A DNA stretch of 64,000 nucleotides, taken from assembly GCF_900115785.1 (NCBI RefSeq), contig NZ_FOYS01000006.1, forward strand, positions 1 through 64,000, in the 5' to 3' direction. Of this stretch, positions 15,560-64,000 are shown in pieces (the first letter of the stretch is position 1; each line of letters opens with the position of its first letter). The position numbers and the translations under genes are program-made. The notes beneath the pieces are model-generated. The model searched no databases, was not told the DNA's origin, and saw nothing but the letters and a program-made list of their open reading frames with translations. Source of the stretch: Halogeometricum limi. Its GTDB lineage: Archaea; Halobacteriota; Halobacteria; Halobacteriales; Haloferacaceae.

Positions 15560-15917
15560 TACTCGACTCGAAAGGTAATTCGGTTAATTTTTCGAAATCG
15601 ACAGGAGAGAACACAACGCACGTCTGAACCACGGTCACTCGAACCGCGCCCGACGAGCGAAACCACTGCTCGTTAATAATCCGCTGTCAGCGTCGCCGAA
15701 CGAAACGGCCACGGTGGCGACGTCGAAACGCGACGCTCGACGAAACGAGTTAGATTCGACGACAACACCGAATCTCACATGCGCACCGGGAGTACGTCGA
15801 GGTGGTTCACAACGCGCTGGAACGAACAACCGAGCGATAATCGACGTTCTCGGGAGCGATTATCGTCCAATTTATTATCTGGATAGCCGGTCGAGGAACG
15901 CGCCGACTCTCGTCCGA
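15560..15917. other. Convergent intergenic region, probable terminator
   Basis: The first 35 bp after the thioesterase stop include TTAATTTTTCG (about 15583-15593), a T-rich run fit for termination. The rest, up to the end of the lipoprotein gene on the other strand, has only basic frames and no recognised element. Confidence 0.4.
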
Positions 15918-16367
15918 CTACGTCGTCCGGACGCTCGCCATCGTCGTGTTCGACGCGCCCTCGACGGCCACGCTCGGTCCCGACGGCGTGGCCGCGGGCG
16001 TCCGTTCGCTCGTGTCGTCGACGGAGGACCCGCCACCCGACGACCCGCCGTCGCCGTTCGACGCCTCGGGGACGGGACCGCTTCCCGTCTCGGGTTCGGG
16101 AGTCGGCGCCGGCGGACCCGCCGACGACGTCGGTTCTGCGGCCGTCGCCGCCGGTGGCGGCGTCGCCGTCGGACGCCCCGGTGGTGCTTCGGTCCCGTCC
16201 GCGTCCACCCGCGTCGCCGTCGCTGTCGGCCCGATATCCGGGTTCGGACCCGGCCGGGGACCGTCCGTGACGGTGCTCTGCTCTCGCGTCACCGTCGGCG
16301 TCTGTTCGGGCCCGCCGCCCCCGCACCCCGCGAGGACGACGAGGAGGACGACGAGGAGTCGCTTCAT
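15918..16367 (-). CDS. Low-complexity lipoprotein
   Basis: A 149-residue exported protein: MKRLLVVLLVVLAGC gives a short signal with lipobox LAGC at residues 12-15, so Cys15 would be lipid-modified and the protein held on the outer face of the membrane. The mature part is Pro/Thr/Ser/Gly/Ala-rich and probably disordered, with no domain. The signal lacks a twin arginine. It is 6 bp from the Tat-exported protein gene on the same strand, and the two are probably one operon (this gene second). Confidence 0.65.
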   Translation of the reverse strand: MKRLLVVLLVVLAGCGGGGPEQTPTVTREQSTVTDGPRPGPNPDIGPTATATRVDADGTEAPPGRPTATPPPAATAAEPTSSAGPPAPTPEPETGSGPVPEASNGDGGSSGGGSSVDDTSERTPAATPSGPSVAVEGASNTTMASVRTT

Positions 16368-16373
16368 CCCCGC

Positions 16374-17486
16374 TCAGTTCATCGTCGTGTTGGAGTCGCC
16401 GCTGACGCCGTCCGTCGCCGCCGTCTTGTTCGTGACGCTCGCGGTGAACGAACTGTTGACCACGGTGACCGCGGGGTGGTTCGCGGAGATGGTCTGGAGA
16501 CTCGGGTAGTGCAGCGACGCGGCCGACCCCGCGCCGGGTTGGTCGGTGAGGTCCGGATAGCCGTCCTCGCCGTTCATCACCAGCGCCGAGTTTCCGCTCG
16601 CGTCCTGCGTGAGGTTGAGGTGGTCCACGAACGTCGACTGCTCGCCCTGCCAGTCGGCCGTCGTCAACTCCCGCCGGGTCGTCGTCGTGTCGCTGAAGTT
16701 CCCGTACTCCGTGTACTGGGCGGACCCGCCGACAACGTTTCCGTTGCCGTCGGTCTTGTTGTTGATGCCGAGAAGCACGATGGTGTAGCGGAGGTTCACC
16801 GTCACCTCGCCCGTCTCGCCGTCAGTCTCCTCGTTCACCACGTCGGTGGAGTCGGCCGCGCCGTAGTACCCCGCGTCCATCCCGGGGTAGTTGTTCTGGG
16901 GACCGTGTCCGACGACGACGTTCCCGCCCTCCTCGTACTGCGAGGCGCTTCCGATGGAGTTGCCCTCGAGGTACGACTGCTGGGAGGCGACCGCGTTCGA
17001 CCAGTTCCAGTTCGCGTAGTCGGGACGGCCCTGCCCGTCGAATAGCTTGATCGTCGCTCCCTCGATGTTCGGGTCGTCGTTCCCGCGCGAGAGTATCTCG
17101 TCTCGGACCGCGGTCGGCGACAGGTCGACCGTCAGCTTTCCGGACTCGCCGGGCGCTTGGACGAGATTTCCGTTCCCGTCGAACGACTCCTCGGTCAGCC
17201 ACGGCGTCGCGCGGAAGACGGGCCACCAGTCGCCGCTCTCGTCCTGCGCCTCGACGAGGAAGTGCACCTTTCCGACGGGGTCGTCGAAGCCCTCCCAGTC
17301 CACGGTGAACTGCGGGGAGATTCCGACCTCGTTCACCTCACCGTCGTTCGTCGTCGCCGACACGTTGCTCGAGTTTATCTCGACGTGCGACGTCGCCGAC
17401 GCGCTACCGGACGCCAGCGTCAGTCCTGCACCCGCGATACCTACCGCACCGATTCCTTTCACGAAGGTTCGTCGTCCAAAGTTCAT
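16374..17486 (-). CDS. Tat-exported protein of unknown function
   Basis: A 370-residue protein with a twin-arginine signal (RRTFVKGIGAVGIAGAGLTL, beginning at residue 5), hydrophobic core and ASA cleavage region near residue 33. The mature part is Asn/Thr/Asp-rich with beta-type segments and a long middle that mentions no known catalytic motif. It starts at MNFGRRTF because the codons before it give a non-signal extension. Neighbours are a lipoprotein gene and, downstream on the other side, the paa operon end. Surface adhesion or binding is possible but unsupported. Confidence 0.65.
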   Translation of the reverse strand: MNFGRRTFVKGIGAVGIAGAGLTLASGSASATSHVEINSSNVSATTNDGEVNEVGISPQFTVDWEGFDDPVGKVHFLVEAQDESGDWWPVFRATPWLTEESFDGNGNLVQAPGESGKLTVDLSPTAVRDEILSRGNDDPNIEGATIKLFDGQGRPDYANWNWSNAVASQQSYLEGNSIGSASQYEEGGNVVVGHGPQNNYPGMDAGYYGAADSTDVVNEETDGETGEVTVNLRYTIVLLGINNKTDGNGNVVGGSAQYTEYGNFSDTTTTRRELTTADWQGEQSTFVDHLNLTQDASGNSALVMNGEDGYPDLTDQPGAGSAASLHYPSLQTISANHPAVTVVNSSFTASVTNKTAATDGVSGDSNTTMN

Positions 17487-17731
17487 TGTGTGTCCCACCG
17501 AGTTGCCTACCTCGGTTGCTCGAACCACCGGACGACTATCACTAAACTATCAGTTTGCTAACGTGCGCTCAACCGGTCGTTCAGGCGTTTCAGAGCCGAT
17601 ACTACCCAATGTCCCGAACGAGTTAGCTGGCTCGTACGTTCGGCTCAACGACTACTTATGCGGACGAATCGACTCGTTTCGCAGAAATATCCGACAGCTC
17701 TTCGAACGACGGCACTCGATTCGGAAACGAC

Positions 17732-17899
17732 TCAGCCGAACTTCTCGAACGGTTCCTGACAGTCGTTGCAGTAGTGCATCGACCGGCAGAGTCCGGGTCC
17801 TTTCGGGTGTTCGCGCTCGGTGTTCGTGCCGTCGCAGTACGGACACGCGGCCGTCTCGTCCTTTCCGCTGGTGTCGACGCTGGGGTCGAGTCCTCGCAT
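17732..17899 (-). CDS. Zinc-ribbon half of a split PaaD
   Basis: A 55-residue protein with CPYC at residues 19-22 and CNDC at 44-47, ending EPFEKFG. This is the C-terminal zinc ribbon of bacterial PaaD, which has a CPxC, then a CRDCLEPF-like ending. Here it is a separate gene, starting 2 nt after the stop of the DUF59 half. Both products together should do what a single PaaD does: help assemble or insert metal into the PaaABC phenylacetyl-CoA epoxidase. It is the last gene of the paaABCD operon. Confidence 0.75.
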   Translation of the reverse strand: MRGLDPSVDTSGKDETAACPYCDGTNTEREHPKGPGLCRSMHYCNDCQEPFEKFG

Positions 17900-17901
17900 G
17901 G

Positions 17902-18324
17902 TCAGATACTCAGTCCGAACTCGCGGAGGTCTTCTCTGCCCGTCTCGGTCACCATCTCGACGGACCAGGCGGGACTCCAGACGAGGTTGAGCAGCACCGA
18001 TTCGACGCCCTCGACGGCCAGAACCGCCTTGCGGATGTCGTCTCGGAGCATGTCGCGCGCGGGACACCCGGTGTAGGTGAGCGTCATGTCGATGCGCGCC
18101 TCGCCCGTCTCCGCGTCCACGCCGACGGCGTAGATGAGACCCAGGTCGACGATGCTGATGGGCATCTCGGGGTCGTCGACGGAGTAGAGCGCGTCCCACA
18201 CGTCGCGTTCGACGCCTTCTGCGCCCACGCCCGTCGCGGGGAACCCCTCGACGTAGTCTCCCTCCGCGTAGTCGGTGTACGCGCAGTACTTCGCGCCGCC
18301 CTCGCCGGTGAACTCGCTACTCAT
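17902..18324 (-). CDS. paaD: PaaD DUF59 (MIP18-like) subunit
   Basis: A 140-residue protein whose residues about 40-135 form a DUF59/MIP18 domain: DPEMPISIVDLGLIYAVGV, then LTYTGCPARDMLRDDI with the conserved Cys, and VWSPAWSVEMVTETGREDL. In PaaD of bacteria this domain precedes a zinc ribbon, which here is the next gene. The extra N-terminal 40 residues (with KYCAYTDY) are specific to this version. The start overlaps the end of paaC by 8 bp. The role is epoxidase maturation, by family analogy. Confidence 0.85.
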   Translation of the reverse strand: MSSEFTGEGGAKYCAYTDYAEGDYVEGFPATGVGAEGVERDVWDALYSVDDPEMPISIVDLGLIYAVGVDAETGEARIDMTLTYTGCPARDMLRDDIRKAVLAVEGVESVLLNLVWSPAWSVEMVTETGREDLREFGLSI

Positions 18325-19502: not shown

Positions 19503-20459
19503 TCAGTCCGCCGTGGCGGGCGTGGCCCCGCCGGTGTTCGCCTCGTACTCGTCCATCGTCTCGCGCACCCACTCGACGGCGTCGTGCGCCCGCTTACGCG
19601 AGTCTATCTGTCCCAAGCCGGGTTCGTACTCGTTCTTCGCTATCTGGAAGAACTCGTCCCAGTCTAAGTCGTCTTCCTCGACGACGTAGCCACCCTCGTC
19701 CTCTCGGTACTCGACGCGCGGGTACTCGGGCAGTTCGAGGCCGTACTTCTCTATCTTCGGCATGTACATATTCAAGAACGCCTGCCGAAGTTCGTCGTTG
19801 GTGTTGAGTTTCAGCCCCACCTGCGAGGAGAAGTCGTGGTGCGTGGACTTCGCGTCCGTCGGGCCGAAGAACTGGATGATGCGCGGCCACCACGTCTCGA
19901 AGGCGTCCTGCAGCATCTCCTGTTGTTTCTTCGTCCCCTGCGACAGTTCCCGGAGGATGCTCTCGCCGTGCTTGACGTGGAAACCCTCCTCGAAGCACAC
20001 TTTGTCCATCGCGTGCGCGTACGGTTCCCAGCTAGAGGACTTCAACGTCGCCTGCCGGCGCATCGCCGCGCCGTCGACGAAGAATCCGATCATCGGCGTC
20101 TCCACCCACGACTCTAGCGGGTAGTGGAAGCAGTTCAGGAACTTCCCTTTCCCCTCCGCGAGTTCGTCGAGCATCTCGTCTCGCGTCTTGATTCCGAGGT
20201 TCTCGGCGGCGCGGTACAGCAGTTGACCGTGGCCGAGTTCGTCCTGCACCTTCGCCGAGAACGCGAGCTTTCGCTCCAGACTCGGCGCTTTCCGGATGAA
20301 CGGGCGTTCGAGGTATGCGCCCATTATCTCGGAGTTGGCGTGGAACTGAATCATCCGCGTCGCCGCCTTCCGGTACTCCTCCGGCATGTCGTCTTTCGGG
20401 GAGAACTGTCTCGGTCCCGCCCGTTCCTTCACGGTGTCGAGGTCCATCTCTATCATCAT
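19503..20459 (-). CDS. paaA: 1,2-phenylacetyl-CoA epoxidase catalytic subunit PaaA
   Basis: A 318-residue diiron oxygenase subunit. Ligand candidates follow the PaaA pattern: Glu44 (FHANSEIMG), Glu74 and His77 (QDELGHGQ), Asp129 region (FFVDGAA), and Glu158 with His161 (FEEGFHVKHG). With PaaBC it converts phenylacetyl-CoA to the 1,2-epoxide using O2 and reducing power; the reductase PaaE is not in this operon. It is the first gene, and the order paaA-B-C-D with 1-8 bp overlaps or 2 bp gaps implies one transcript. Two ATGs (20459, 20456) are possible. Confidence 0.92.
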   Translation of the reverse strand: MMIEMDLDTVKERAGPRQFSPKDDMPEEYRKAATRMIQFHANSEIMGAYLERPFIRKAPSLERKLAFSAKVQDELGHGQLLYRAAENLGIKTRDEMLDELAEGKGKFLNCFHYPLESWVETPMIGFFVDGAAMRRQATLKSSSWEPYAHAMDKVCFEEGFHVKHGESILRELSQGTKKQQEMLQDAFETWWPRIIQFFGPTDAKSTHHDFSSQVGLKLNTNDELRQAFLNMYMPKIEKYGLELPEYPRVEYREDEGGYVVEEDDLDWDEFFQIAKNEYEPGLGQIDSRKRAHDAVEWVRETMDEYEANTGGATPATAD

Positions 20460-55906: not shown

Positions 55907-58900
55907 ATGACCCACCCGCGCCGCGCCGCCGTCCCCCTGTTCGCTCCGACGACGCTCGCCGTCGACGGCGCGGCACTCGCCGCGGACGGGCGAGACGACC
56001 GACGACTCGCGGAACGCGCCCGGTCGGTCGCACGCGCGTGGCGGTCGACCGCAGGTGACGAGACGCCGAGAGAGCGTATTTCGGACGCGCTCGGACTCGC
56101 CGCGCCGTCCAGTGGCGACGGCCGCGGCGATGCACTCGGTGTCGACTGCGACGACGGCGACGGCGACGACGATTGCGGCGGCACGGCCACCACCGCGCCA
56201 GTCGCCGTCGAGTCGGTTTCGGCGGGCGGACTCGACGCCGCGGGACGCGAACCGGCCGCGAGGAGACTCGTCCGACGACTCGACGAGACCACCCGTTGGG
56301 GCGTCCTCACCGACGGCCGGTACTGGCGACTGTACGGCGGTGACGACCCGGACGAGGAACGGTTCGCGGAGTTCGACCTCCGAGCGGTCTTCGTCGGCGG
56401 TGACGGCGACGCCGACTCCGCGTCGCCGTCGCTCCACGCCTTCGTCTCGCTGTTCGCCCGCGAGGCGTTCGCCGGCGACGACTCGTTTCTCGACGGACTG
56501 TTCGACGCGGACACCGAGCGACGCCGGACGACGCGAAACTCGCTCTGCGACCGGTTCGTCGCGGCCGTCGAGACGCTGTCCGAGACGACCGGCGCGACGC
56601 CGGAGACGGCGTCGGCGCTCTGTTTCTGCCTCCTGTTCGACCTGTACGCCCTCGACCGGGCCGGCGTGTCGCGGTTCGCCGGCCGCTCGGACCACCTTCG
56701 GCGGGCGCGTCGGCGACTCGCGGCGTCCGGAGGAACTACGCCGGCGACCACTGACGAACTCGACTCCGCGACGCGCGACTGCCTCTCCGCGTGGGTCGCG
56801 AGCGCGGCGGATTCGACGCTCGGCGGGCCGTCCGCGGGTCGGTCCGACGCCGACCCGTCCGAGAGCGTCGCCGACTCCACTTCTGGAGTCCGCGCGCTCG
56901 ATGCCGGCGCACTCGACGCCGACACGGTCCGGCGAGTCTGTACGCTCCTCGCGGCCGTTCCGGTCGGTGACGACGTCCGCGTCGTCGACTTCCGAACCGT
57001 CGAGACGCGTCTCTTCGCGGACGCGCACGAACGACTCGTCGACGCGCCGTTCGCCGACCCGTCTTCCGGTTCGACGACTCGACGGAAGGCGGACGGGTCG
57101 TTCTACACGCCGGCTCCGGTCGTTCGGTACCTCGCCGCGCGGGCCGTCGACTCGGCCGTCGGAGACGCGGAGACGGCGACTGCCGAAGACGGGACGGCGT
57201 CGATGGGCGCGGTCCGGGAACGACTGTTCGACGTGCGAGTCCTCGACCCGGCGATGGGGGGCGGGACGCTCCTCGTCGCCGTCGCCGACCGTCTCGTCTC
57301 GCACCTTCGGCGACTCGCCCGCGAGCGAGACGCTCCGGTCGAGTCGTACGCGTCTCTCCGTCGAACCGTCGTCTCGCGATGTCTCTACGGTGTCGACGGC
57401 AACCACTCGGCGGTGGCGGTCGCCCGTCTGGCCTGCCACGCGGAGACGCTGGGCCCCGATTCTCCGCCGCGCGACCGACCGCGGTGGTTCGACCACCTCC
57501 GATGGGGCGACACCCTCCTCGGTCCTGGTCCCGACGCGGAGTCGGAGTCGCGGTCGAACGACGCCGCCCGCCCCCCGGAGCAGTCTCTCGATTCGCCACA
57601 TCGCAGGCCGCCACCGATACGCTGGAATTCGGGGTTTAGCGGTGCTTTCGGAGCCGAGAACAGCGGACAAGGTGGTGTTCGGTTCGACGCCGTCGTCGGG
57701 AACCCGCCCTGGAAGGGGACGGCGGGGCGGGCCGGCGTCAGTGCTCGCCTCGCGGCCGACGTGTCGACGTACCTCAGAGAGACGTTCGAATCGACGAAGG
57801 GAGCGCAACCGAACCTGTACGCGGCGTTTCTCGAACGCGCGTGTCGCCTCGCGCCGAGCGGATACGTCGCGTTCGTCGTCCCGGACGCGATACTCGTCAG
57901 ACTCTCCGCCGCCCCCGCCCGTCGGTTCCTCCTCGAACGCGGCGTCCTCACGCACGTTCTCCGCGTCGGCCACGTCTTCCCCGACGCGAACGAGGGGGCG
58001 GCTATCGTCGTCTGCGGCCCCGTCGAGGTTGTCGGTACCGAGGTGGACGCTTCCGGCGCGGCCGAGACGGCGATTCGGACGTGGTACGGCGACGCCGACG
58101 AGTTCGCGGACGCCGTCGCGGCGGGGTCGCTGACGTACGGCCGACTCCGACGCGACGTGGTCGAGACCGAACCGTACGCTCGCCTCCAACTGCTCCGCGA
58201 CGACATCGCCGACGGAGTGTTCCGAAAACTCGAACGGTTCGACCCGCTCGAATCGGTGGGAACCGTCGCTCGCGGCGAGGAGTTCGGCAAGCGGGACGAA
58301 CGCGTCGTCTCGGGCGCGGACCCGTGCGGGGAGACGCGACGGCTCGTCCCCGGGTCGGCCGTCCGGCCGTACGCGCTTCGGAGCCGAGAGGTCCGGCGTG
58401 TGGCGACCGACGCGGTGACGAAAGACGTGTACGACCCGCCGAAACTGTGCTGTCGGCAGACCGGCCGGTTCCTCGTCGCGACGCTCGACACCGACGGCGT
58501 CGCGAACCTGAAGTCGGTCTACGACGTCCACGCTCGAGACGGCGACGAGCGGACGCTCTCGCACCTCCTCGGCCTCGTGAACTCGACGGTGTACAACTAC
58601 TACCACTACGTCCGACGGAACGCGTACCCCGCGCAGTTCCCGCAGAACAACCAGCGAAACTACGAGACGCTCCCCGTCTGGAACGGGAGCGCCGACGACG
58701 AACTGGTCGAACTGGTCGACCGGCGGCGAACCCTCGCGCGAGAACTGGCCTCGCTGGACACCGAGATAGCCGCCGCCGTCCCCCCGGAAGCGGCGTCGGT
58801 CCCCCTCTCGCGGTTCGACCCCGTCCGTCTGGACGACTCGCTCTCTCGGTCACACCGGCGAGCGACCCCGGGCCTCCGTATCGCAGACCTGTCGGTGCGG

Positions 58901-59398
58901 GTCGAAGACGGCGCGGTGGTCCTCCGGGTGACGTACGTCGGCGGCGACGGCGGGGATGACGCCGACAGGCGTGGCGACGGGGCGGGCGACGACGGACGCG
59001 CGTGGACGGCCGCCCGAGACGTGTTCCGGTTCGAGGCGCCGACCCCGGACGAGAGGGCGGTCCTGACGACGTGGCTCCCGGCCGTCGGCGCGGCGACGGC
59101 GGCGGTCCGACGGGCGTCGGGACTCCGGCCGGTCGGCCGCAGTTCGCGGACGACGCCGGAGAAGCGACTTGCGGCGCTCTGCGTCCCGGACCCGACCGAG
59201 TACGCGCGACGAGTGGCGCGGTACGCGCGAGACTGCCGCGACGCGGCCGCCCTGTCCGCGTCGGCGTCGGCGTTAGACGACCGCATCGACGACCGCGTCG
59301 CGTCGCTGGTCGGTCTGACCGACGCGGAACGCGCGCACGTTCGAGCGACGATGACGGCGGTTCCCGGGTGGACGTCGCTTCGCGACGCCTCGCCGTGA
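55907..59398 (+). CDS. Type IIG-like N6-adenine DNA methyltransferase, nuclease degenerate
   Basis: A 1163-residue protein with an N-terminal region that keeps the type IIG framework: APVAVESVSAGGLD, then TTRWGVLTDGRYWRLY (residues 128-143), a long helical part, methyltransferase motif I DPAMGGGT (447-454), motif IV NPPW (599-602), and a C-terminal target-recognition part with LLGLVNSTVYNYYHYV and NNQRNYETLPVWN. In intact enzymes the segment before WGVLTNG contains an ExK nuclease motif; here it is Glu102-Ser-Val104, so DNA cleavage is probably lost. Low-complexity Asp/Gly insertions occur at 80-92 and 1010-1035. TATCTTTTTG is 33 bp before the ATG. No separate restriction or BREX partner is near. 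Confidence 0.8.
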   Translation: MTHPRRAAVPLFAPTTLAVDGAALAADGRDDRRLAERARSVARAWRSTAGDETPRERISDALGLAAPSSGDGRGDALGVDCDDGDGDDDCGGTATTAPVAVESVSAGGLDAAGREPAARRLVRRLDETTRWGVLTDGRYWRLYGGDDPDEERFAEFDLRAVFVGGDGDADSASPSLHAFVSLFAREAFAGDDSFLDGLFDADTERRRTTRNSLCDRFVAAVETLSETTGATPETASALCFCLLFDLYALDRAGVSRFAGRSDHLRRARRRLAASGGTTPATTDELDSATRDCLSAWVASAADSTLGGPSAGRSDADPSESVADSTSGVRALDAGALDADTVRRVCTLLAAVPVGDDVRVVDFRTVETRLFADAHERLVDAPFADPSSGSTTRRKADGSFYTPAPVVRYLAARAVDSAVGDAETATAEDGTASMGAVRERLFDVRVLDPAMGGGTLLVAVADRLVSHLRRLARERDAPVESYASLRRTVVSRCLYGVDGNHSAVAVARLACHAETLGPDSPPRDRPRWFDHLRWGDTLLGPGPDAESESRSNDAARPPEQSLDSPHRRPPPIRWNSGFSGAFGAENSGQGGVRFDAVVGNPPWKGTAGRAGVSARLAADVSTYLRETFESTKGAQPNLYAAFLERACRLAPSGYVAFVVPDAILVRLSAAPARRFLLERGVLTHVLRVGHVFPDANEGAAIVVCGPVEVVGTEVDASGAAETAIRTWYGDADEFADAVAAGSLTYGRLRRDVVETEPYARLQLLRDDIADGVFRKLERFDPLESVGTVARGEEFGKRDERVVSGADPCGETRRLVPGSAVRPYALRSREVRRVATDAVTKDVYDPPKLCCRQTGRFLVATLDTDGVANLKSVYDVHARDGDERTLSHLLGLVNSTVYNYYHYVRRNAYPAQFPQNNQRNYETLPVWNGSADDELVELVDRRRTLARELASLDTEIAAAVPPEAASVPLSRFDPVRLDDSLSRSHRRATPGLRIADLSVRVEDGAVVLRVTYVGGDGGDDADRRGDGAGDDGRAWTAARDVFRFEAPTPDERAVLTTWLPAVGAATAAVRRASGLRPVGRSSRTTPEKRLAALCVPDPTEYARRVARYARDCRDAAALSASASALDDRIDDRVASLVGLTDAERAHVRATMTAVPGWTSLRDASP

Positions 59399-59660: not shown

Positions 59661-59939
59661 TCAGTCGGCCGCGATTTCGGTCTGCGGGATGACGTCGACG
59701 TCCCACGACTGGTCGACGACGACTTCGCACCCGTCCAGGGTGAAACTCACGTGACCCTCGACCATCGATTCGCTGCTCGGCATCCCGACGAACAGTTGCT
59801 TGACGGCGTCGAGGTCGACCACGTCGTGGAGTCGTTCGCCGAGTTCGAGCGGTTCGACGCCCTTCGCGTCTGCCACTGCGGTCACGATCTGCCAGTCGAG
59901 GTCTTCGTCCACCGTCTTGCCACCGTGTTTCTGAGTCAT
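59661..59939 (-). CDS. HalOD1 output-domain protein
   Basis: A 92-residue protein: WQIVTAVADAKGVEPLELGERLHDVVDLDAVKQLF (about 16-50) and ending VSFTLDGCEVVVDQSW. This is the haloarchaeal HalOD1 output domain, found alone or attached to sensor modules. Probably part of a signalling pair, though the partner is not clear; the large Bat-like regulator is next on the same strand, 157 bp upstream. A box (ACTTATCCC) is 27 bp before the ATG. Confidence 0.85.
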   Translation of the reverse strand: MTQKHGGKTVDEDLDWQIVTAVADAKGVEPLELGERLHDVVDLDAVKQLFVGMPSSESMVEGHVSFTLDGCEVVVDQSWDVDVIPQTEIAAD

Positions 59940-60095: not shown

Positions 60096-62858
60096 TCAGA
60101 GCCGCCTCTCTCCGTCCTCTGCGAGGAGTTCGTCGAGGAGTTTGCGCTCGGCCACGCGGAGATGCCGCGCGAACGTCGGTTGCGCCACCCCGAGTGACTC
60201 TGCGAGGCTACTGGCCGTCCGCTCGCGCGGCCACGCGAAGTAGCCGGAGAAGTACGCGGTCCGAAGCGCCTCGAACTGCCGGTCGGTCAGCGACTCCCGA
60301 AGCCGCGCCCGGAACGACTGTTGCGTCTCGATGGAGCGTTCTCGCGTCCGCTTGGCGCTCAGCTCGGTTCCGGGGAACGTCTCCTGAAGGCGTTCGACGA
60401 ACTCGCGGACGTCGGAGCCGGGCGTGAGTTCGACGACGACGTCGAGTGCGTCCGGCGTCGCGGTGAGCGTTCGGACGACGCCACCCAGTTCTGCGAGCCG
60501 CGACGGGAGCGCTTCGCTCGTCAGTTCGACCTCCAACAGCGTCTCGTCGTCTCGAGTGACGATGTCGCGCACGTGTTCGACGGCGAGGACCGACGACAGC
60601 GAGTCGAGGTCGACTTCGGTCCCCGTCACGGTCAGATAGAGCAGCGTCGACCCGCCCGCCTGCGGAACGCTGCCTTCCAGCCGTATCTCTCCGCCGACCG
60701 TCTGCGCGAGGCGGAGCAGTGGCGCGTTCGGACTCGTGACCCGGACGCCGAGTTCGATGAGCGACTCGGTGTGCAGCGACTCCTTTGCCTCCGCGCCGTT
60801 GATGGCGTTCGCCGTCGTCACGCCGAGTTCCTCGAACATCAGTCGCGTCTGGTCGTCGAACGCGTTCGGCTCCGTCGCGTAGACGGTCAGCGCGCCGTAG
60901 CTGAAGTCGTTGTACTGCAGTGGAACGCTGGCGACCGAGCCGAACTGGCGGTCGAGTGCGTCGCGCCGCCACTGATGGTCGCGAATCTCGGCGCCGACGT
61001 TGTCGACGAGCGTCGTCTCGCCCGAGTCGATGGTCAGCACGCTCGGTTCCGTCGCGAACGCGTCCGGGTCGTCGGCCAGGCGGTCGAGGTAGCCGCGTTC
61101 TTCGCCCGCCCACGCGTGCGGGACGACGGTCTCGGCCACCCGGTCGTACGTTCCGACCCACGCGAACGCGATACTCGGCCCGTCGACCAGTCGTTCGCAG
61201 ACTGCCCGCTCTATCTCCTCGCGCGAGTCGGACTCGACGAGGACGCGGTTGACCTCCCGGAGCAGTTCGTTGAAGCGGTTGAGGTTCGTCAGTTCGTCGT
61301 TTCGCTCGGCGAGTTCGCCCCTGCGACGTTCGAGTTCGACAGAGCGGTCCACCCGGTCGAGTGCGGCCTCGGCGTTCGCCGCGAGGAGGTGGGTCAGCGT
61401 CGACTGTCCGCGCGGGGCGTCTTCGCCGGCGCTGAGCGTCGCGAGGACGCCGTGTTTTCCGAGCGGAATCGCGACGCTCTCGCGGTCGGCCGTCGGGTCG
61501 TTCGCGGCCGCGAGGGTGTCCCACTCGTCGAGCGGCGTGTGGTCGGCCCCGAGATGGACCGTCTCCGCTTCGACGAAACACGTCCACAGAGCGCCGTCGC
61601 CGGGGCCGATAGCGGGGGCCGTCCCCTCCCCCTCCCACACCACCGGCCGGAGTCGACCGACGGCTTCGTCGTAGAGGTAGACGACGACGGACTCCAGTTC
61701 GAGAATCTGCGTCGCGGTGTCGAGTACCGTCTCGGCGACGGCGGGTTTCGTCTGCGACTCGAACAGTTCGCGCGCGGAGCGGTTGAGTGCGGTCAGCGTC
61801 TGCTCGTACCGTTTTCGGTCGCTGATGTCGCGTACGACGCCGACCGACCCGTGCGACCCGTCGCTGAAACTGAGCGCGGAGAAACGCGTCTCGACGGGTA
61901 TCGTCCCCCCGTCCGCGGTCTCGAGTTCGGCGTCGAGACGGCCGTCGTCCAGTTCGCCGGTGAGGATGTCCTGGATGACGTCGCTCGCCTCGACGATAAC
62001 CGACTCGTCTGCGAGGATAGTCGAGTGCGCCCCGATCAACGTCTCTCGGTCGTACCCGGTCATCTCGAGGACGGCGTCGTTCACCTCCGTGATGAGGAAG
62101 TTCTCGTCGAGGGTGTATATCCCGTCGTCGATGGTCTCTAAGATGCGCTCGTACCGGTCGAGCGACTCTCTCGTCTCCGTCTCTTCGGTCACGTCTCGCC
62201 AGCGGATCGCGAGGCCGTCTCGGAGGGGGACCGTCCGCACTGCGACCCGCCGACCGTCGTCCAACGTCTCCTCGAACGCCGCGGCGCTCTCCGAGAGAAC
62301 GGACTCCCAGCAACGCGGAGCGACCGCGCGCGCGTCTGCCCACGCCCGCCACAGCGTCTGGTCGCCGGGTGCGGGTTCCGTCTCGCGGACGACGTCGTCG
62401 AACGCCGTCGTCGCCGAACGGAGTCGCCACCGACGGTCGAGGACGCACACGGCGTCGTCGAACGCGGCGGCCGAGTCGACGAGGTCCGTCGTGGCGACGG
62501 TGTCCGCCGCGTCCAGTTCGGTGACGCCCGTGACCCACGCCAGTCGGGAGGGCAGTGTGTCGTCGGGGGGGAGTACGTCGTCCGCCCCCGCGCGGTACGC
62601 GCGTTCGACCGTCTCGTCGTCGGGGTCCGGAAAGACGGCGAGGACCAGTCCGCCGATTCCGCTCGCTCGTTCCGTCGCTTCGATGCTCGTACAGACGATG
62701 CAGTCCGCGCGCCCGTCCGACTCGACGTCGGCGGCGTCTCCGAGGGCCGTTCGCGTGTCGGCGAGCAACAGTTCGCGAACGTGCGTCGTGTGGGGGCCGT
62801 CACCGAGGAGACTCACCCGTACCTCTGCGGACTGCGATGGAGTCGACTCGGCGGTCAT
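60096..62858 (-). CDS. Bat-like sensor-regulator: PAS, PAS, GAF, GAF, HTH_10
   Basis: A 920-residue protein. Order: about 1-115 receiver-like fold without a clear phospho-acceptor; about 125-225 and 235-355 PAS domains (second: ILETIDDGIYTLDENFLITEVNDAVLEMTGY); 365-510 and 545-690 GAF domains; about 700-850 the bacterio-opsin activator partner domain; 865-912 HTH_10 (LTDRQFEALRTAYFSGYFAWPRERTASSLAESLGVAQPTFARHLRVAERKLL). Bat of Halobacterium has the same plan and activates retinal and bacterioruberin-type isoprenoid genes. Start at the ATG 29 bp after a CTTATTGCC box; an upstream TTG is in frame. Divergent from the terpene-synthase-like gene. Confidence 0.9.
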   Translation of the reverse strand: MTAESTPSQSAEVRVSLLGDGPHTTHVRELLLADTRTALGDAADVESDGRADCIVCTSIEATERASGIGGLVLAVFPDPDDETVERAYRAGADDVLPPDDTLPSRLAWVTGVTELDAADTVATTDLVDSAAAFDDAVCVLDRRWRLRSATTAFDDVVRETEPAPGDQTLWRAWADARAVAPRCWESVLSESAAAFEETLDDGRRVAVRTVPLRDGLAIRWRDVTEETETRESLDRYERILETIDDGIYTLDENFLITEVNDAVLEMTGYDRETLIGAHSTILADESVIVEASDVIQDILTGELDDGRLDAELETADGGTIPVETRFSALSFSDGSHGSVGVVRDISDRKRYEQTLTALNRSARELFESQTKPAVAETVLDTATQILELESVVVYLYDEAVGRLRPVVWEGEGTAPAIGPGDGALWTCFVEAETVHLGADHTPLDEWDTLAAANDPTADRESVAIPLGKHGVLATLSAGEDAPRGQSTLTHLLAANAEAALDRVDRSVELERRRGELAERNDELTNLNRFNELLREVNRVLVESDSREEIERAVCERLVDGPSIAFAWVGTYDRVAETVVPHAWAGEERGYLDRLADDPDAFATEPSVLTIDSGETTLVDNVGAEIRDHQWRRDALDRQFGSVASVPLQYNDFSYGALTVYATEPNAFDDQTRLMFEELGVTTANAINGAEAKESLHTESLIELGVRVTSPNAPLLRLAQTVGGEIRLEGSVPQAGGSTLLYLTVTGTEVDLDSLSSVLAVEHVRDIVTRDDETLLEVELTSEALPSRLAELGGVVRTLTATPDALDVVVELTPGSDVREFVERLQETFPGTELSAKRTRERSIETQQSFRARLRESLTDRQFEALRTAYFSGYFAWPRERTASSLAESLGVAQPTFARHLRVAERKLLDELLAEDGERRL

Positions 62859-63045
62859 GACGAGTGGGTTGCGCTCCCCCGGCAATAAGTGGTCGTTTCA
62901 GACTCGCAGAGAAATTCATTATTTTGTGAATGTATCTGGAATGCTCCAGGAATGCGGCAATATTATATTCTTATTTAGCTGAATGTCTGCTAATCAGGCT
63001 AGTTAAGTAGGAAGATTAATAAATTAGACCCTAATTAATACGGGT
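62859..63045. promoter_or_regulatory. Divergent regulatory region, Bat-like / terpene-synthase-like
   Basis: A 187-bp AT-rich region. Visible: a box for the bat-like gene (about 62882-62892), a run of ATTATATTCTTATTTAGC (62961-62978), and before the plus-strand gene an A/T box ATTAATAAATTAG (63015-63027) about 25 bp before the ATG. An inverted repeat AATTAG-ACC-CTAATT (63022-63036) overlaps that box and could be an operator. Confidence 0.5.
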
Positions 63046-64000
63046 ATGTCGGGGAGAGCAGCATACCAACACTCGGATGGTGTCCTTGGGGGGAACCACG
63101 CAGAGTGTATCGAGGAAGTCCAAGCAACCGAACTACCACCAGCAATCGTCGAACTCTCGAACGAGTACGACCGTCGGGTCGGCGACCGCGACGTGTTCCT
63201 CTGGAAGTGGATTCACACCCTGTTCGACGCGTTCACGCTACCCTGCGTGCCGTCGGAGGCGTGGGAAGAAGTGAAGGAGGCGAAGACGGTGTTCACGATG
63301 TTCATCACCGTCTTAGACGACGTCGCGGACCGGTCGGGGGACGGTGCGACGTTCGAACAGGCCCGCCGCATTCCGTACTCGCCCGAGTCCGTCGACTCGG
63401 AAGCGCCCGGCGTCGACACCGAAGTCGTCGAGTTCGCCGCGAAGCTCTGGGACGACGTTAACGAGCGATTAACGGACGCTCCGTGCTACGAAGAGCATCT
63501 CGACGTGTTCCGGTTCGACATCCGACAAGCGCTCAACGCGATGGAGTACGCGCGCGTCGTCAACGACAACAAAGACATCGCCAACATGGCGGAGTCGCGC
63601 CACCACGGTCCGTTCAACATGGTGATGTTCCCGTACGCGGGGATGGACCTGATGTGGACGCCCGACTTCGACCGGAACGAACTGGGCGAACTCCGGAATC
63701 TCCTCTTGGACCTCCAGAAGATGGCCCGTATCGGAAACTGGGTGACCACGTGGGAACGCGAACTGTTCGAGAACGACTACACCGCGGGAGTCGTCGTCGA
63801 GGCACTGGACGAGAACATCATCACGACCGACGACGACCCCGAGAACGCTATCGCGGCGATCAACGAGCACGAAGTCGTCGACCAGTTCGAGGAGGAGTGG
63901 GAACGACGCTACCGAGAGGTATCGGCCCGCGACTACGGCATCGATAGCTTCGACGCCGACACCCTCGTCCGCGGGATGCGGACGGTCATGGAGTTCCACC
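63046..64000 (+). CDS. Class I terpene-synthase-like protein (3' end outside window)
   Basis: The first 318 residues are visible. It has the Asp-rich metal motif LDDVAD (Asp91, Asp92, Asp95) in helix FTMFITVLDDVADRSGDG, and the second site N231-x3-T235-x3-E239 (GNWVTTWEREL), which is the NSE/DTE triad spacing. Arg185 (AESRHHGP) lies 46 residues before Asn231, where terpene cyclases keep the pyrophosphate-sensing Arg. All-helical, no signal. It is not a trans-prenyltransferase (no second DDxxD) nor a phytoene synthase. Substrate (geranyl, farnesyl or geranylgeranyl diphosphate) is open. Codon use is ordinary for the organism. Confidence 0.7.
   Translation, partial: MSGRAAYQHSDGVLGGNHAECIEEVQATELPPAIVELSNEYDRRVGDRDVFLWKWIHTLFDAFTLPCVPSEAWEEVKEAKTVFTMFITVLDDVADRSGDGATFEQARRIPYSPESVDSEAPGVDTEVVEFAAKLWDDVNERLTDAPCYEEHLDVFRFDIRQALNAMEYARVVNDNKDIANMAESRHHGPFNMVMFPYAGMDLMWTPDFDRNELGELRNLLLDLQKMARIGNWVTTWERELFENDYTAGVVVEALDENIITTDDDPENAIAAINEHEVVDQFEEEWERRYREVSARDYGIDSFDADTLVRGMRTVMEFH

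Follow-up and report, generated by a model that had tools for sequence, protein, structure and literature searches.

Known class I terpene synthases use three Mg2+ ions. Bacterial cyclases usually contact the diphosphate through a sensor Arg and a C-terminal RY pair. In Nostoc, sesquiterpene synthases reportedly form miniclusters, in which a P450 and a hybrid two-component protein accompany the synthase. We know of no receiver-synthase fusion from these miniclusters. The family described here resembles the miniclusters in that a synthase can lie beside a P450 and a sensor, but the synthases of Nostoc are canonical cyanobacterial enzymes.

The closest described relatives of our family are bacterial class I synthases (PF19086), for example, the T-muurolol synthase of Roseiflexus castenholzii (PDB 9hqz) and the N-terminal domain of geosmin synthase (5dz2). 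The family shares with them the all-alpha fold and the succession of DDxx(D/E) and N-x3-(S/T)-x3-E, with the right spacing and a basic residue before the Glu. It differs from them in sequence (about 14% identity), in the Thr fixed in the triad, in NW for ND, in a sensor column that is acidic and has no Arg, and in the lack of the RY pair. Specific to the family are the invariant residues R48, W55, W232, W236 and D201, as well as the link or fusion to signalling genes.

According to a 2023 paper, halocin and bacterioruberin were the only products assigned with confidence to an archaeal gene cluster (PMC10105419). The original prediction for our locus, an archaeal class I terpene synthase, stated that terpene cyclases are scarcely described in archaea. 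For validated enzymes this is broadly right, and our literature search turned up no study of an archaeal terpene cyclase. There is, however, a preprint whose title claims archaeal terpenoid biosynthesis (Samusevich et al., bioRxiv 10.1101/2024.01.29.577750, cited as ref. 48 in PMC12797696). In view of this preprint, we do not claim priority for archaeal terpene synthesis.

The gene, its motifs and its predicted fold

The window, the whole stretch of 64,000 nucleotides from Halogeometricum limi that was analysed, ends inside the gene of interest. The ORF starts with the ATG at 63046 and is open to the window edge. On the full contig it is complete (G000:C2:63046-64023) and has 325 codons. Its features are:

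63046..64000 in the window, + strand: gene for a divergent class I terpene synthase of 325 aa, with the stop ending at contig position 64023 (ORF, motifs, predicted fold and profile comparison)
63187..63189, + strand: codon of Arg48 (Arg in 76/76 homologues, non-Arg in aligned canonical synthases)
63316..63330, + strand: DDVAD (residues 91-95), the first of the two metal-binding motifs, closing predicted helix 70-95 at its C-terminus
63736..63762, + strand: NWVTTWERE, second metal-binding motif of the NSE/DTE type, residues 231-239, within predicted helix 210-241

Both motifs of the original prediction, DDVAD at 91-95 and N231-x3-T235-x3-E239, are present in the proposed order and spacing. The second follows about 140 residues after the first and has the form (N,D)-x3-(S,T)-x3-E. 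Across 76 distinct homologues the motifs are close to fixed: D91 is kept in 96% (the rest have Asn), whereas D92, a D or E at position 95, N231, T235 and E239 are kept in 100%, and R238 in 97%. Since the motif residues are conserved at 96-100%, they are not there by chance. Outside the metal ligands, R48, W55, D201, W232, W236 and D244 are found in 100% of the homologues. The Thr that replaces Ser in the triad had been noticed in the single sequence. It is common to the whole family and therefore no local oddity.

The proposed pyrophosphate sensor fares differently. Arg185 does lie 46 residues before N231, but its assigned role is not borne out. Position 185 is Arg in just 11 of 76 homologues (Glu in 31, Trp in 10), and the canonical Arg column aligns to family position 188 (187 in hhalign), which is mostly Asp, Glu or Gly. 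Because Arg185 is not conserved and the canonical column lies elsewhere and is mostly acidic, we regard the distance of 46 residues as a coincidence of spacing. The C-terminal RY pair, usually about 80 residues past the triad, is absent too; the C-termini of the family are HLASxGxK-like. With sensor Arg and RY pair both missing, the diphosphate must be held otherwise. The conserved residues R48, R217, R228 and R238 are candidates for this role, and Arg48 may be an alternative diphosphate contact.

By itself, the window protein is hard to place. A single-sequence search against Pfam and NCBIfam gave no match, not even to PF19086 at E 1. A scan of its genome for Terpene_syn_C_2 gave no match, and a sequence search against the PDB gave nothing meaningful. 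For the relatives the profile search works: of 60 members scanned singly, 44 reach E 1 or better against PF19086 (Terpene_syn_C_2), with 7.1e-8 as the best value, and 8 match Terpene_synth_C. In a whole-genome scan, family members of about 37 haloarchaeal genomes exceed Pfam's curated cut-off, and L075 exceeds it too. Aligned with hhalign against 25 canonical synthases, the family scores a probability of 96.9% (E 3e-10, 282 columns), and the register puts DDVAD on DDQCD and NWVTTWERE on NDIISLEKE. Neither a profile built from the 60-member alignment nor a phmmer search with two relatives gave a match in the PDB. Hence, the link to PDB entries is one of fold.

The AlphaFold model, which was run on an alignment of 13 sequences, is all-alpha (pLDDT 86.9, pTM 0.86) and has both motifs on long helices. 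The first lies at the end of its helix and the second inside its helix, the usual motif places in class I synthases. Judged by this placement and by the register with canonical synthases, the two motifs would face one pocket. The top PDB match in Foldseek is a bacterial sesquiterpene synthase, the T-muurolol synthase (E 1.5e-4, probability 1.00, TM 0.59). Next to it, the best matches include geosmin synthase, further terpene synthases, and the farnesyl diphosphate (FPP) synthases of human and insect. All TM-scores to the PDB are moderate, about 0.5-0.6.

Taken together, the Pfam matches of the relatives, the profile-profile comparison, the AlphaFold model and the fixed motifs support homology to class I terpene synthases, as originally predicted. 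We take the window protein to be an authentic, divergent class I terpene synthase, which is likely to be active.

Distribution and phylogeny

The divergent family is found by profile search in 88 of 293 sampled genomes of the order (~30%), and in more genomes elsewhere in the phylum. Haloarchaeal members are 27-74% identical to the window protein. Six members are plasmid-borne, every one of them annotated as 'hypothetical protein'. Two members (G194:C1:488807 and G190:C1:2039635) have in-frame stop codons and are possible pseudogenes.

Canonical-type terpene synthases occur in just two of the 293 genomes (G227 and G279). They belong to the same superfamily and occur in the same order as our family, but those of L098 and L132 match PF19086 with E-values of 1e-49 to 3e-39, have a longer N-terminus and group with canonical synthases of Chloroflexota. 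In these two genomes, the canonical-type synthases of L098, L101 and L132 begin with an additional domain of some 120 aa, which looks SRPBCC-like by eye.

Bacterial relatives of the divergent family come from two genomes, a Chloroflexaceae bin (L012) and an Anammoxibacter bin (L013). Among 251 sampled Chloroflexota genomes, one has a member. No relatives were found in the viral contigs that we searched. In a tree from a quick search, which has long branches, the family and the canonical synthases of Chloroflexota and haloarchaea lie on opposite sides of a long supported branch (SH-aLRT 99, length 3.1).

Regulators, receiver fusions and neighbouring genes

In the window, the synthase is divergent from a regulatory gene:

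60096..62885, - strand: Bat-type regulator, 929 aa as listed, with PAS, GAF, BAT and HTH_10 domains, divergent from the synthase
62859..63045, no strand: A+T-rich divergent region between regulator and synthase, a putative promoter region
59661..59939, - strand: HalOD1 (halobacterial output domain 1) protein, downstream of the Bat-type regulator

The likely start of the regulator is the ATG at about 62858. Halogeometricum pallidum conserves the stretch just 5' of the synthase ATG. The divergent pair of the window is kept in six other loci; regulator and synthase are arranged in this way, with a gap of 141-210 bp, in L001, L002, L003, L004, L005, L045 and L083. Small genes like the HalOD1 gene adjoin the regulator in L002, L004 and L045.

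Other members have other partners. A PAS histidine kinase is the partner in, for example, L006, L009, L010, L011, L020, L022, L040, L046 and L053. A FilR1-type regulator forms an apparent operon with the synthase in L044, L048, L050-L052, L060 and others. The Anammoxibacter synthase is followed by a 1554-aa PAS-GAF-kinase-receiver protein. Counted over all loci, a histidine kinase, HTH_10 or FilR1-type regulator lies at most 1.2 kb from 47 of 76 synthases, compared to 18 of 125 control genes from the same loci (Fisher p 5e-12). As a control this is coarse: ORFs were selected by a composition filter, and related synthases, which are not independent, are counted separately. When members are grouped into clusters at 70% identity, the linkage is found for 28 of 53.

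In two members, and probably in a third, the link to signalling is a fusion:

L046:1074-2519, - strand: response-regulator receiver fused in frame to the synthase
L059:7763-9280, + strand: response-regulator receiver fused in frame to the synthase
L008:3-1271, + strand: receiver-like start and synthase, cut by the contig start, beginning inside the receiver-like sequence

Those of L046 and L059 are single ORFs of 481 and 505 aa. Both retain the acidic pair of the receiver, the phospho-acceptor Asp in LLDR and the KP lysine, together with DDxxE and the N-x3-(T/S)T-x2-E triad region. HalX sequence is clear in L059 and weak in L046. A PAS histidine kinase adjoins the fusions of L046 and L008. In the family tree, L046/L008 and L059 sit in two separate places, which suggests that the receiver-synthase fusion arose more than once. 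Our literature search found no report of a receiver-terpene synthase fusion. The signalling linkage of the family, up to direct receiver fusions, is the new element and the most interesting part of our analysis. Neither this linkage nor the wide distribution was visible to the original prediction, which had the spacing of motifs to go by.

Biosynthetic genes are neighbours of some members. Five loci, the bacterial L012 and L049, L065, L067 and L079 of archaea, have a P450 no more than about 2 kb from the synthase. We counted P450s in flanks instead of whole genomes, because the genome scan is biased by the choice of genomes. The archaeal flanks contain four P450s inside 2.5 kb versus one outside in almost twice the DNA, and the outside one is a fragment at the edge of its stretch. 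The genome of the window gene has five P450 matches, none of them beside the window synthase, and no tailoring genes or P450 were found next to this copy. Two polyprenyl synthases are encoded elsewhere in the same genome, a possible substrate supply.

Several neighbourhoods hold further genes. The biosynthetic-looking cluster at L049:2833-14821 comprises a synthase, a SnoaL-like protein, a P450, a hydrolase, an aminotransferase, an FAD oxidoreductase and an O-methyltransferase. At L065:7735-14228, two synthase paralogues enclose a P450 together with small proteins of 180-205 aa that are uncharacterised and recur in L056, L067 and L072. In the window, 55907-59398 (+ strand) is an ORF of 1163 aa whose NPPW motif is methyltransferase-like; it may encode a restriction-modification enzyme. 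L001 has tandem paralogues (15857-18128 and 19594-20000) that are very acidic, look secreted and have DVDIELDG-type repeats.

Just beyond the window edge (L001:8484-9392, - strand) and downstream lies a gene whose 302-aa product has conserved pairs of Asp and looks like a degenerate prenyltransferase. A second copy is found at G000:C5:313276. We considered this gene as a substrate partner. However, it occurs in 3 of 117 genomes, was not found in the flanks of the other members and has no Pfam prenyltransferase match; for these reasons we do not claim it as part of the system.

Proposed function and alternatives

The explanation that we favour, and consider quite probable, is an active, divergent class I terpene synthase from a haloarchaea-centred clade, which is probably controlled by the Bat-type regulator. 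Our results show the homology, predicted fold, fixed motifs, distribution, gene linkage and fusions, whereas we infer the catalysis, the substrate and product, the signal and the regulation. With its DDxx(D/E) and N-x3-T-x3-E motifs, the enzyme would hold Mg2+ for the ionisation of a prenyl diphosphate. The substrate could be FPP, GGPP or GFPP from the cell's own polyprenyl synthases, and the carbocation would yield a terpene hydrocarbon or alcohol. The divergent PAS/GAF/HTH_10 (Bat-type) regulator probably controls transcription of the synthase, and hence terpene production would respond to a sensed condition. In relatives, adjacent histidine kinases, FilR1-type regulators or a fused receiver domain probably take over this control. 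Against the favoured explanation speak the missing Pfam and NCBIfam matches of the window protein, the lack of sensor Arg and RY pair, the moderate TM-scores with FPP synthases close behind, and the absence of a P450 or tailoring gene next to the window copy.

Linkage to kinases and receivers would also be explained if the synthase fold had been recruited as a sensor or regulator that binds prenyl diphosphates without making terpenes. The neighbouring histidine kinases, HTH_10 and FilR1-type regulators and the receiver fusions fit such a role. However, nearly every member keeps all metal ligands, while pure binding would allow them to drift, and several members are adjoined by P450s and tailoring genes. 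We thus find a pure sensor unlikely. The protein could also be an enzyme of the trans-prenyltransferase type, which sets chain length or couples prenyl diphosphates and is not a cyclase. Farnesyl diphosphate synthase and other trans-prenyltransferases (PF00348) belong to the same fold superfamily, FPP synthases are among the top structural matches with nearly equal Foldseek scores, and Arg48, invariant and close to the N-terminus, could hold a second diphosphate. Yet the second motif is N-x3-T-x3-E and not a second DDxxD, the families matched are Terpene_syn_C_2 and Terpene_synth_C with neither PF00348 nor any other prenyltransferase family among them, and the genome already has two ordinary polyprenyl synthases. 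Hence, a chain-length or coupling enzyme appears quite improbable.

Least convincing is an ordinary bacterial-type terpene synthase that haloarchaea acquired recently. The two bacterial relatives from Chloroflexaceae and Anammoxibacter fit this reading, but the long supported branch to the canonical synthases, the wide spread of identities inside haloarchaea and the single member in the Chloroflexota sample all speak against it, and we consider it very unlikely.

As an extension of the favoured explanation, haloarchaea may run two-component systems with terpene synthesis itself as their output. In the fusions of L046, L059 and probably L008, phosphorylation by a PAS histidine kinase, which is encoded by a neighbouring gene in L046 and L008, would activate or inactivate the enzyme. 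In the clade of the window gene, a Bat-type regulator would act likewise at transcription, and the terpene would be a signal-controlled, possibly diffusible product. This extension is a tentative proposal, which we think could well be wrong.

If the family is active, standard annotation overlooks an enzyme class in about 30% of the sampled genomes of the order, and archaeal terpene chemistry would extend well past carotenoids and membrane lipids. The receiver-synthase fusions, two of three beside a histidine kinase, would make the control of terpene synthesis testable in genetically tractable haloarchaea.
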